Shown here: positions 48,395 through 50,590 of the stretch, piece after piece
How the letters are laid out: each line of letters opens with the position of its first letter
Position numbering within the stretch: position 1 is the stretch's first letter
Source of the DNA: Alphaproteobacteria bacterium
GTDB lineage: Bacteria; Pseudomonadota; Alphaproteobacteria; Rhizobiales; Xanthobacteraceae
Reading direction: 5' to 3'
DNA length: 64,000 nt
Assembly (NCBI GenBank): GCA_016869215.1
Contig: VGEP01000010.1
Location: 1-64,000, forward strand
The notes under the pieces: generated by a model
The model's input: the letters and a program-made list of their open reading frames with translations, nothing else
Databases searched by the model: none
What the model was told of the DNA's origin: nothing
Position numbers and translations under genes: made by a program

Positions 48395-49489
48395 TCAAGC
48401 CGGCCAATCCTCGGCCGTTACCGCCGCGGCATTGACACCGACGAGGTCGGACAGGGCCTTCGCCTCGCCGCGGTCGAGCAATGCAACCAGCGCCGCCTTG
48501 ATCTCGTTGACGAGGCCAAGCCCGCGGAAGACGAGCGCGCTGTAAAGCTGCAACAGGTCCGCGCCGGCGCGCATCTTGGCGATCGCAGCAGCACCCGAAT
48601 CGATGCCGCCGGCTCCGATCAGCGGGAACGCGCCTTCGACCCGCACGTAGGTCTCCGCCAGCATCCTCGTCGACAGCGCAAACAGCGGCCGGCCGGACAG
48701 ACCGCCGCCCTGCCTGGCGGTGTCGCGGTCGCGCAGGCCCTTGGGCCGGCCCACGGTCGTGTTGCCGACGATCATGCCGTCGATCCTGCGCGCGCGCGCC
48801 ACGCCGACCATGTCGTCCAGCTCGGTGAGCGTGAGGTCCGGCGCGATCTTGAGCAGCACCGGCGTCGGCCCCGCATGCGGCACGACGCGGTCGCGCGCCT
48901 CAACGATGCGTCCGAGCAGGTCGTTCAACGCCTCGGCGCGCTGCAGGTCGCGCAGGCCGGGTGTGTTGGGCGAGGACACGTTGACGGTGACGTAGCTTGC
49001 GACCGGCGCCACGGCTTCGAGCAGCCGCACATAGTCCGCGCTGCGATCGAGCGAGTCCTTGTTCGCCCCGACGTTGACCCCGACGATGCCGCCTCGCCCG
49101 GCCCGGGCCGCGAGCCGCCGCAGCGCCACGTCGGCGCCATGGCTGTTGAAACCGAACCGATTGATCACCGCCTCGTCGGGCTCAAGCCGAAACAGACGCG
49201 GCCGCGGATTGCCCGGCTGCGGCAGCGGCGTCACGGTGCCGATTTCGACGAAGCCGAAGCCGAGCCGCAGCAGCGCGTCGGCCACCTCGGCGTGCTTGTC
49301 GAAACCCGCCGCCAGCCCGACCGGATTCGGAAAATTCAGCCCGAAGGCGCGCACCGAGAGCCGCGGATCGTCCGGCGCGGGGCGGCCATGCGGCGCCACC
49401 TTGAGGGCCGCAATGGCCAGCGTATGGGCGGTTTCCGGATCGAACGCCCGCAGCACAGGCCGGGCCAGCCGGGCGAAAAGTCCAATCAC
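48395..49489 (-). CDS. pyrD: Dihydroorotate dehydrogenase (quinone), class 2
   Basis: PyrD oxidises dihydroorotate to orotate at the membrane, passing electrons to ubiquinone. The 364-residue product has [42 protein letters not shown], and [15 protein letters not shown]. The class 2 active-site loop is [14 protein letters not shown] with the catalytic Ser, followed by KIAPDLT and [10 protein letters not shown] use GTG 49489, which has GGAG 6 bases upstream and gives [22 protein letters not shown], the usual N-terminal membrane-binding region. The open frame goes further but enters the hairpin array. Confidence 0.94.
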
Positions 49490-49502: not shown

Positions 49503-49578
49503 CTAGTGGCCCGATTCCAACATTCGCATCCCGTTTCGGCATGCGTGTTTGCGAATGTTGGAATCAAAGGACCACTAG
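49503..49578 (+). repeat. Hairpin 1 of the 49.5 kb array
   Basis: The outer arms CTAGTGGCCC (49503-49512) and GGACCACTAG (49569-49578) pair with one C-A mismatch. The inner arms GATTCCAACATTCGCA (49513-49528) and TGCGAATGTTGGAATC (49550-49565) pair perfectly. An AAA bulge lies on the 3' side, and the loop has 21 bases. It shares its last CTAG with hairpin 2. Confidence 0.9.
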
Positions 49579-49650
49579 TGTCGCGATTCGGAAGTTCGCC
49601 TGAATGCTCTGCTTATTCCGTAGCGAACTTCCGAATCAAAGCGACACTAG
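49575..49650 (+). repeat. Hairpin 2 of the 49.5 kb array
   Basis: The outer arms CTAGTGTCGC (49575-49584) and GCGACACTAG (49641-49650) and the inner arms GATTCGGAAGTTCGC (49585-49599) and GCGAACTTCCGAATC (49623-49637) pair perfectly. AAA bulges on the 3' side and the loop has 23 bases. The design is that of hairpin 1, while the paired bases differ at several positions. Confidence 0.9.
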
Positions 49651-49663
49651 CAACATTATGATT

Positions 49664-49740
49664 CTAGTGTCCCTTTTGAACCCGAAGTTCGCAATCGAGC
49701 TTGCCGCGCAATCGGGCGAACTTCGGGTTCGGGACACTAG
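49664..49740 (-). repeat. Hairpin 3 of the 49.5 kb array (inverted)
   Basis: The outer arms CTAGTGTCCC (49664-49673) and GGGACACTAG (49731-49740) and the inner arms GAACCCGAAGTTCGC (49678-49692) and GCGAACTTCGGGTTC (49716-49730) pair perfectly. The bulge is TTTT on the 5' side, that is AAAA on the 3' side of the lower strand, so this copy points the other way. The loop has 23 bases. Confidence 0.9.
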
Positions 49741-49752
49741 CAAATATATGTG

Positions 49753-49831
49753 CTCGTGGAGCTTTGGATTTGACATTCGCTTCGCGGGTTCGCGACAAGG
49801 TGGGTAGCGAATGTCAAATCCGCTCCACGAG
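49753..49831 (-). repeat. Hairpin 4 of the 49.5 kb array (inverted)
   Basis: The outer arms CTCGTGGAGC (49753-49762) and GCTCCACGAG (49822-49831) and the inner arms GGATTTGACATTCGCT (49766-49781) and AGCGAATGTCAAATCC (49806-49821) pair perfectly. The TTT bulge on the 5' side marks the same orientation as hairpin 3. The loop has 24 bases. Confidence 0.9.
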
Positions 49832-49869
49832 GGCGCGCGGACCCTATCGGCCTGAGCGGTGTTCATCAA

Positions 49870-49905
49870 GCAAGGCACTGGACAGACGCCTTGCAAGGCT
49901 ATAAT
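49870..49905 (+). promoter_or_regulatory. Promoter with GCAAGGC half-sites upstream of the S24 regulator
   Basis: TATAAT (49900-49905) has TGGACA (49879-49884) 15 bases ahead. The palindrome GCCTTGCAAGGC (49888-49899) fills the space between the two boxes, and a further GCAAGGC stands at 49870-49876. These three half-sites suit an operator for repression, perhaps by the regulator encoded just downstream. Confidence 0.6.
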
Positions 49906-49951: not shown

Positions 49952-50590
49952 ATGCCGAGCGCCCCGCTGACGCACAACCAGATCTGGACCGCACTCGACC
50001 GGCTCGCAGCGCGCGCCAAACTGTCGCCGTCGGGCCTTGCCAAGCGGTCCGGCCTCGACCCCACCACCTTCAACAAGTCCAAGCGCATCACGCCGGACGG
50101 AAGGCCGCGCTGGCCATCGACCGAATCGGTCGCGAAGGCCCTGGCCGCGACCGGCGTCAGCGTCGAGATCTTCGTGTCGCTGATCGGCGACTCCAAGGGC
50201 TCGGCGCAGGCGGTACCGCTGATCGGCTTCGCCGAAGCCGGTGCCGGCGGCTATTTCGACGACGGCGGCTTCCCGGTCGGCAAGGGCTGGGACGAGATTG
50301 CGTTTCCCGCGGTCAACGACGAGCACGCCTACGCGCTGGAGATTTCCGGCGACTCGATGATGCCGGCCTACCGCGACGGCGATGTGATCATCGTGTCGCC
50401 GGCGGCACCGGTGCGGCGCGGCGACCGCGTCGTGGTCAAGACGAAAAAGGGCGAGGTGCTGGTCAAGGAGCTCAAGCGCCAGACCGCCAAGCTCGTGGAG
50501 TTAAAGTCGCTCAACGCCGCTCACGCCGACCGCTCGCTGTCGCTCGACGACGTGCTGTGGATCGCGCGGATCGTTTGGGCGAGCCAGTGA
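49952..50590 (+). CDS. S24/LexA-like helix-turn-helix regulator with peptidase domain
   Basis: The 212-residue protein has an N-terminal HTH-like part (residues 8-75: IWTALDRLAARAKLSPSGLAKRSGL) and a C-terminal S24 domain. The catalytic Ser135 is in ISGDSMMPAYRDGDVIIV and Lys163 in RRGDRVVVKTKKGEVLVKEL. An Ala-Gly pair in FAEAGAGG (residues 93-100) may be the self-cleavage site. Such proteins are repressors inactivated by cleavage, often after DNA damage, though many Rhizobiales copies are chromosomal and of unknown stimulus. The promoter ahead carries palindromic half-sites. A phage origin is possible, but no phage genes are near. Confidence 0.88.
   Translation: MPSAPLTHNQIWTALDRLAARAKLSPSGLAKRSGLDPTTFNKSKRITPDGRPRWPSTESVAKALAATGVSVEIFVSLIGDSKGSAQAVPLIGFAEAGAGGYFDDGGFPVGKGWDEIAFPAVNDEHAYALEISGDSMMPAYRDGDVIIVSPAAPVRRGDRVVVKTKKGEVLVKELKRQTAKLVELKSLNAAHADRSLSLDDVLWIARIVWASQ

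Follow-up and report, generated by a model that had tools for sequence, protein, structure and literature searches.

Introduction

Two-armed intergenic repeats of Alphaproteobacteria have long been known; Bru-RS dates from 1994, RIME from 1995 and CIR from 2003. The RIME design consists of two palindromes. RIMEs are described as repeated intergenic elements of rhizobia (PMC2573895). CIRs, which are associated with CcrM and occur in Caulobacter and other alphaproteobacteria, are characterized in one review as two long inverted-repeat arms joined by a linker, with TA termini and GANTC sites, and as absent from genes; the same review states that more information is needed on their mobility mechanism (PMC2229807). 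Bru-RS1 and Bru-RS2 of Brucella are given as palindromic repeats of 103-106 bp that serve as insertion site for IS711, an insertion sequence with YTAR as its reported target (PMC3163539, PMC2266754, PMC10800456). REPs are smaller (20-40 bp) and are described as carrying GTAG or CGTC tags, those with GTAG being linked to tyrosine transposases (PMC3733652). IS630 is reported to duplicate TA at insertion, and the title of a paper cited in the same source gives its preference as the TA in CTAG (PMC2170065). Among the MITEs ascribed to this family, RUP is one for which an IS630 transposase has been suggested as the mover. In the open-access literature that we searched, no CTAG double-hairpin family of the size described below is named.

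Results

Two nested elements between pyrD and an S24 regulator gene

The window analyzed here is a stretch of 64,000 nucleotides from an alphaproteobacterium of the Xanthobacteraceae (contig VGEP01000010.1, positions 1 to 64,000). An array of four long hairpins lies, as the original prediction placed it, between pyrD and a gene for an S24 regulator, and the two genes are divergent. The start of pyrD, placed by eye, is most likely the GTG at 49489 on the minus strand, 13 nt from the array. The features, in window coordinates, are:

48395-49489, minus strand: pyrD, dihydroorotate dehydrogenase (PF01180, 256.8 bits)
49503-49831, no strand: entire array, element A split by element B, in the divergent gap between pyrD and the S24-regulator gene
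49503-49578, plus strand: A left hairpin (unit 1; model R1, 88.4 bits)
49503-49527, plus strand: A left-end outer arm (terminal inverted repeat)
49566-49568, plus strand: AAA bulge on the inner arm of the A left hairpin (position from alignment)
49575-49578, no strand: CTAG, with TA at 49576-49577, inner foot of the A left hairpin and target of B (from comparison with uninterrupted A copies)
49575-49740, plus strand: element B (units 2 and 3) within A (solo copies elsewhere in the genome)
49575-49650, plus strand: B left hairpin (unit 2)
49651-49663, no strand: B linker, 13 nt (the gap is 13 in 92 of 170 elements)
49664-49740, minus strand: B right hairpin (unit 3), TTTT bulge at 49674-49677
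49737-49740, no strand: CTAG/TA target, second copy, produced when B inserted
49741-49752, no strand: A linker, 12 nt, parted by B from the A left hairpin
49753-49831, minus strand: A right hairpin (unit 4), TTT bulge at 49763-49765, feet CTCG/CGAG and not CTAG/CTAG
49807-49831, minus strand: A right-end outer arm (terminal inverted repeat)
49952-50590, plus strand: S24-family regulator gene, divergent from pyrD (PF00717, 86 bits)

The hairpins have the arms, bulges and loops that had been claimed for them. The four units are 76, 76, 77 and 79 bases long, and each consists of a 10-bp outer stem, a bulge (AAA in units 1 and 2, TTTT in unit 3, TTT in unit 4), an inner stem of 15-16 bp and a loop of 21-24 bases. 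Pairing is near perfect, also as claimed: the four stems, about 102 bp in all, contain a single mismatch, C.A, which lies in unit 1. One CTAG (49575-49578) belongs to units 1 and 2 alike, so that the two overlap there.

The array had been read as four copies of one unit. The shared hairpin design holds, but the units are not independent: unit 1 belongs with unit 4, and unit 2 with unit 3. A BLAST search of the host genome finds array positions 1-76 fused elsewhere to positions 233-329, and positions 73-240 as a separate element; where units 1 and 4 are joined, their two matches overlap by 6 bp. The array is made up of a pair of small mobile DNA elements, one of which has inserted within the other. 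Element A (units 1 and 4) has a length of 168 bp, and element B (units 2 and 3) is inserted at the first inner CTAG of A. Each element is built from two facing hairpins of about 76 nt with a linker of 12-13 nt between them (166-170 bp in total); the hairpin feet are CTAG or an altered CTAG, and the inner arm carries the A-rich bulge. In an alignment of the copies with their flanks, uninterrupted A reads GGACCACTAGCAAGT at this place, and the window reads GGACCACTAG, then B, then CACTAGCAAAT. Model R1, which was built from the wider family with the four units of the window included, lists units 1, 3 and 4 when run on both strands of the 64-kb window, unit 2 not being listed apart from the unit 1 that it overlaps; the model finds no further credible copy in the window, the one extra place having an E value of 0.52.

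Upstream of pyrD, a CTTGAA/CTTGAT...GATAGGG block that appears conserved by eye is found at window 49840-49880 (minus strand) and in the orthologous loci L227-L235. This block sits beyond the array, which suggests that the array is perhaps inside the pyrD leader, to which it may add 329 nt of hairpins.

Copies, empty sites and the CTAG target

The host genome (5.15 Mb in 123 contigs, 100% complete) contains at least 18 other full A copies and at least 11 other full B-type copies, two of the 11 diverged; both counts are lower bounds taken from 40 of the 53 first-look candidates, and full copies are matches above 60 bits that span nearly the whole model. The existence of a palindromic-element family that inserts at CTAG, one of the readings offered originally, is thus borne out by 29 further full copies in the host besides those in the window, by copies in relatives, and by stem changes that are compensated.

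The array is missing in 8 of the 10 genus relatives searched, where the flanks of the pyrD gap are directly adjacent. The flanks are on separate contigs in one of the other two relatives (G007), and the second (G008) has no flank match among the matches listed. For four other host copies, 20 orthologous loci were obtained from relatives, and 18 of these are without the element; the query for this comparison comprised 12 of 14 flank segments plus 8 bases of a thirteenth, from 29 host copies, and relatives were fetched for the four. At L216 and L217, two loci orthologous to the site of host copy A_L037, two relatives carry an unrelated insert (CCCCCGGTCATTCCGGGG...) instead.

In L212, the cleanest empty site, one CTAG stands at exactly the place that is taken up, in the filled site, by an element and its two feet. 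At the junctions of the remaining 17 empty loci CTAG is missing, for which divergence may be the reason, and L212 is the one case of an intact target outside nesting. The nested insertions are stronger evidence for the CTAG target than the empty sites. Four more of them occur at inner feet (L042, L136, L144 and L173), and they comprise B in A as well as A in B-type elements; tandem insertion is observed too. In the window CTAG occurs 18 times, compared to 54.0 occurrences expected under a second-order Markov model, and 5 of the 18 are inside the array. Nesting can be attributed to this rarity of CTAG in the window outside the array, together with its provision by the elements themselves.

The insertion of an element adds one CTAG-type foot, and duplication of TA and duplication of CTAG give the same sequence outcome. 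Target duplication of variable feet was considered and rejected: of the 21 elements in which neither outer foot is CTAG, only 1 has two identical feet. The host copies had also hinted at covariation between the base outside and the base inside the right foot, and this did not hold up (P 0.34 for 133 A elements, P 0.83 for 25 B elements).

Distribution and variants

The family occurs patchily across Alphaproteobacteria. A DNA search gave matches in 20 of 61 genomes, and a search with model R1 found the hairpin in 20 of 289 alphaproteobacterial genomes and in 16 of 219 genera, which are lower bounds obtained with strict filters; the host is included in both genome counts. A pattern scan of named genomes returned at least 116 stretches, from Xanthobacteraceae, Bradyrhizobium, Afipia, Rhodoplanes and others. 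A elements are also present on contigs labelled Betaproteobacteria and Marinimicrobia (L117, L125 and L161), which are probably mis-binned.

Matches to the A consensus were found in 16 plasmid records, 5 of them at 80% or more of its length (Aminobacter, two Martelella, Bradyrhizobium and Rhizobium), with partial matches on plasmids of Ochrobactrum, Agrobacterium, Roseibium and Labrenzia. A rescan of five plasmid stretches showed a facing pair of hairpins in each, the pair being incomplete in Bradyrhizobium and Roseibium. Whole B had no match in the plasmid records, where only partial low-identity matches to its left arm were found, and the array had none in the phage records; one IMG/VR contig shows the pattern of the A right hairpin.

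The 1.31 Mb that were scanned contain 170 double elements and 35 solo hairpins, 8 of which are halves of nested cases and 7 of which are no more than 110 bp from the end of a locus. Two elements are hybrids of a B-like left hairpin and an A-type right hairpin (A_L197_7616 and A_L204_7061), which reveals that the hairpins act as modules. Shorter, distant relatives of roughly 120-133 bp occur in G105 and G343. In G307, three elements of 72 bp consist of the two outer arms only, one of each type, and have no inner arms:

L326, 1813-1884: 72-bp outer-arm element of G307
L327, 2004-2075: 72-bp outer-arm element of G307
L328, 1647-1718: 72-bp outer-arm element of G307

This suggests that the outer arms are perhaps enough for movement.

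The array contains five GANTC sites of the CcrM type (window 49513, 49561, 49585, 49633 and 49660). The density of GANTC in the family is 10.5/kb, whereas the loci around the elements have 2.45/kb and elements after shuffling 3.5/kb, and 194 of the 196 sites in A left hairpins are located at the base of the inner stem.

A candidate IS630-type mover

The elements are short, dispersed and devoid of a transposase gene. Judged from their sequences, the two nested copies are quite probably MITE-like, non-autonomous elements mobilized in trans by an IS630-type transposase. The outer arms would be terminal inverted repeats recognized by a trans-acting transposase of the IS630 family (Tc1/mariner-type DDE), which would excise the element, insert it at the TA within CTAG, and duplicate the TA. 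The inner arms are the outer arms in inverted order with an insertion of 3-4 nt, a bulge that would displace the arm halves by 3-4 nt; this makes the outermost pair of arms the one likely used for mobility.

The likeness of the terminal repeats to IS630 ends was tested and found. In G343, elements of 270 bp (L312 745-1014, and L313-L317) have terminal repeats of about 45 bp that start CTAGTGTGGTGG and are family-like in the style of their ends; no double hairpins were seen in these elements, and the 270-bp element had no match in the plasmid records. In the sister species G351, five contig ends (L342, L343, L344, L346 and L347) stop 72-77 bp into a common repeat that starts CTAGTCACCTGGAACTGAAGTTCG, and the end of this repeat shares its core with the ends of the G343 elements. 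The G351 repeat is longer, and its interior was not found in the G351 assembly. Its end matches plasmid termini weakly (E 0.004 to 0.2); in three of the four plasmid stretches that were fetched, from Sinorhizobium, Sphingobium and Komagataeibacter, the match corresponds to both ends of annotated IS630-family elements, and the fourth (L371) has no annotated transposase. The transposases of the IS630 elements match PF13358 in 5 of 5 cases and NF033545 in both of the two scanned.

Eight further IS630 elements were fetched by protein similarity regardless of their ends, and in three of them no convincing terminal repeat was found. They include ISMex18, whose ends are CTAGTGGTGTGAGTTGGAAGTTTC and CTAGTGGTCTGAGTTGGAAGTTCG. 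An element of Rhizobium anhuiense, with a transposase 90-92% identical to ones annotated as IS870 and ISAr1, has the right end CTAGTGGATTGATTCCAACGTTTG; the best A arm has the same base as this end at 20 of 24 positions, among them those of CTAGTG. IS870 requires CTAG.

We scored 16 IS630 ends against a profile of 318 outer arms over positions 7-24; a G003 end padded with filler letters is not among the 16. The shuffle floor (P = 0.0002) is reached by seven ends, and P is ≤ 0.01 for 12; 8 of the same 16 have a negative profile score. Poor fits are the right end in Azospirillum (P 0.096), the left end in B. septentrionale (P 0.21) and the left end in R. anhuiense (score 0.0 over 24 positions). 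The ends from S. meliloti, Sphingobium and Komagataeibacter came from a search seeded with an end, so that only the protein-found ends are independent; in this set of five elements, 4 of the 10 ends are at the shuffle floor and 6 of 10 have P ≤ 0.01. Under the 24-position profile, the two ends of ISMex18 score 15.8 and 24.1, the best match of an IS630 element at both ends, and 443 kb of reversed control DNA contain no match above 15 and four above 10.

After a search of 37 genomes, 30 DDE_3 loci of relatives were retrieved, some of them cut by contig ends, in which no matching ends were found, the sole strong profile match being an adjoining hairpin; the ends present at the IS630 loci of relatives are of the CTAGAGCG type. 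The only DDE_3 match in the host is a fragment that scores 22.8 bits and falls below the cut-off. As no intact matching transposase was found in its genome, the host copies are probably immobile relics. A long autonomous copy with hairpin ends was not present in the 1.31 Mb scanned, and no transposase was recognized by eye in the ORF lists beside the solo hairpins L019, L020 and L038. Copies at contig ends of G307 were considered as a candidate autonomous element and rejected, since they are ordinary short copies wherever both halves are visible. At L238 (107-181), the outer CTAG of a solo hairpin abuts an IS630-type element with a CTAGAGCG end, which suggests that the CTAGs of the family may serve another IS630 as well.

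An alternative explanation is that the mover belongs to another DDE family that prefers CTAG and that the similarity to IS630 ends is convergence. IS5- and IS481-like elements are examples of DDE families favoring CTAG. No cognate IS630 was found in close relatives, as this explanation would have it, and IS711 of Brucella is reported with a YTAR target and a TA duplication (PMC3163539, PMC2266754). However, in several of the protein-found IS630 elements the similarity of the ends extends over positions 7-24, beyond the target, and we consider convergence unlikely.

A second alternative is that these are REP or REPIN-type elements, moved on single-stranded DNA by a RAYT (Y1 HUH) transposase. 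Inverted hairpins with a one-sided bulge and a tetranucleotide foot do resemble REP doublets and the ends of IS200/IS605, and six carriers (G013, G018, G021, G023, G025 and G006) have PF01797 matches. However, six other carriers (G004, G008, G017, G020, G028 and G034) are without such a match, as is the 100%-complete host genome; a linked RAYT-type transposase was among the things that the original prediction proposed to look for. Moreover, it is IS630 ends that the outer arms match, and hairpins of the family do not flank the RAYT-like genes present in relatives, with the exception of a weak partial match in L076 about 2.2 kb away (E 0.13; 0.0012 in a second search). A RAYT mover therefore has very little probability. 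The palindromes found in the G021 and G025 stretches that carry RAYT-like genes (L074 1188-2836, L075 1991-2073) are of other kinds and do not resemble the family.

What keeps the stems paired

We aligned 98 hairpins, 94 chosen from 318 (below 86% string similarity, 68-84 nt) plus the four of the window, to a structure written from one member. In this alignment 93.4% of cells pair and both sides have changed in 24 of the 26 pairs; 514 cells are altered on both sides, compared to 162 in shuffles, and structures that were slid along the alignment pair in 39% at most. The compensated stem changes first noticed in the four units are found in the other copies as well.

The feet covary as well. In 134 A elements, P is ≤0.001 at five of the eight foot positions and 0.0005 at a sixth; of the remaining two, an outermost position on the left has P 0.054 and the other is invariant. 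Covariation was not seen at flanks 1-5 of these 134 elements, and no foot position was significant in 25 B elements. Where a foot has changed on both sides, the two sides are exact complements in 11 of 28 cases on the left and 20 of 35 on the right; the cross-hairpin controls give 3 of 21 and 6 of 27.

Strong compensatory change of this kind could reflect selection for a structured RNA, be it a leader, an RNase III site or a terminator. The fold is very stable (the array reaches -220.4 kcal/mol, compared to a mean of -144.6, sd 5.5, for 100 dinucleotide shuffles, none of which folds as low; z -13.7), and the array adjoins the start of pyrD. However, selection on RNA would favor G·T, and G·T pairs are fewer than A·C: among the 8228 cells of 318 hairpins, G.T/T.G accounts for 106 and A.C/C.A for 173, and in the 21 core pairs the counts are 60 and 83 (P 0.065). 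There is no excess of G·T, and nothing here points to RNA selection, which was one of the possibilities raised in the original prediction. Against Rfam there was no match at gathering level, and below it matches were at chance level only.

The gene context is mixed. By a crude ORF caller, 158 of 159 full elements do not fall within a predicted ORF; 14 of the 158 lie at the edge of a locus. For 102 of the 159 elements, gaps above 600 bp being dropped, the numbers observed and expected by length are 11 and 25.6 in convergent gaps, 60 and 50.8 in tandem gaps, and 31 and 25.6 in divergent gaps (P 0.004). The depletion of convergent gaps is not a terminator-like pattern, and the proposal that the array insulates pyrD from its neighbor is likewise not supported, as these two genes are divergent. 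Since, in addition, the array is absent in relatives, a structured RNA is a highly improbable reason for the pairing of the stems. A chance cluster of inverted repeats is refuted, for practical purposes, by the fold that beats every shuffle, by the dispersed homologous copies, and by the change on both sides in nearly all pairs.

The comparison of nearest-neighbor hairpins points to constraint on both arms, at the level of DNA. The stems are identical in 93 of 261 such pairs, whose loops differ at 22% of positions. Counted against the commonest pair and summed over four groups, 156 changes affect the outer arm only, 200 the inner arm only, and 391 both. Palindromy may be kept through recognition of a cruciform or folded DNA, or through templated correction of one arm by the other.

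Discussion

Of the systems already known, CIR, Bru-RS and RIME repeats come closest to the elements described here. Like CIRs, these elements have two arms and a linker, are intergenic, end in TA and contain GANTC sites. However, CIRs are about 110 bp long, whereas the elements of the window span 166-170 bp with loops of 21-24 nt, and GANTC is located at or in the terminal loop of one stem-loop in CIRs but at the base of the inner stem in A left hairpins. We therefore do not file the elements as CIRs, with which they are compared by description only. The same kind of comparison, by description only, applies to two other systems: Bru-RS repeats, which are smaller, share the palindromic build and the role as insertion hot spot, and RIMEs share the repeated and intergenic occurrence. 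With REPs, BIMEs and REPINs the elements have in common that they are palindromic and intergenic and form inverted doublets; unlike REPs they have hairpins of 76-79 nt and CTAG as the commonest foot, with GTAG rare, and unlike REP/RAYT systems they have no linked Y1 transposase flanked by its own repeats.

In terms of movement, the elements resemble IS630 elements (ISMex18 and the IS870/ISAr1-like ones) and the MITEs ascribed to them, such as RUP, which have CTAG-footed terminal repeats and insert at TA. From the likeness of the ends, our elements would work like an IS630-type MITE. They differ from IS630 in one respect: the IS630 ends we read are not doubled into hairpins, whereas the elements carry an inverted, bulged second copy of the end. 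Mobility through the outer arms leaves the near-equal conservation of the inner arms unexplained. As a tentative idea, an IS630-type transposase might use doubled, foldable ends, that is, a hairpin with a bulged inner copy of the terminal repeat, and the arms might be kept alike by cruciform recognition or by template switching within the hairpin; this might be the mobility mechanism of the class that includes CIR, Bru-RS and RIME.

The mobile-element family is real and well supported, and the new part is its link to IS630. The comparison of G·T with A·C cells tells constraint at the DNA level from constraint at the RNA level, and the family is a caution that strong covariation with a fixed geometry need not imply a structured RNA. 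The match to IS630 ends, the CTAG target, the empty sites and the mini-elements made of outer arms together make the question of CIR mobility directly testable.
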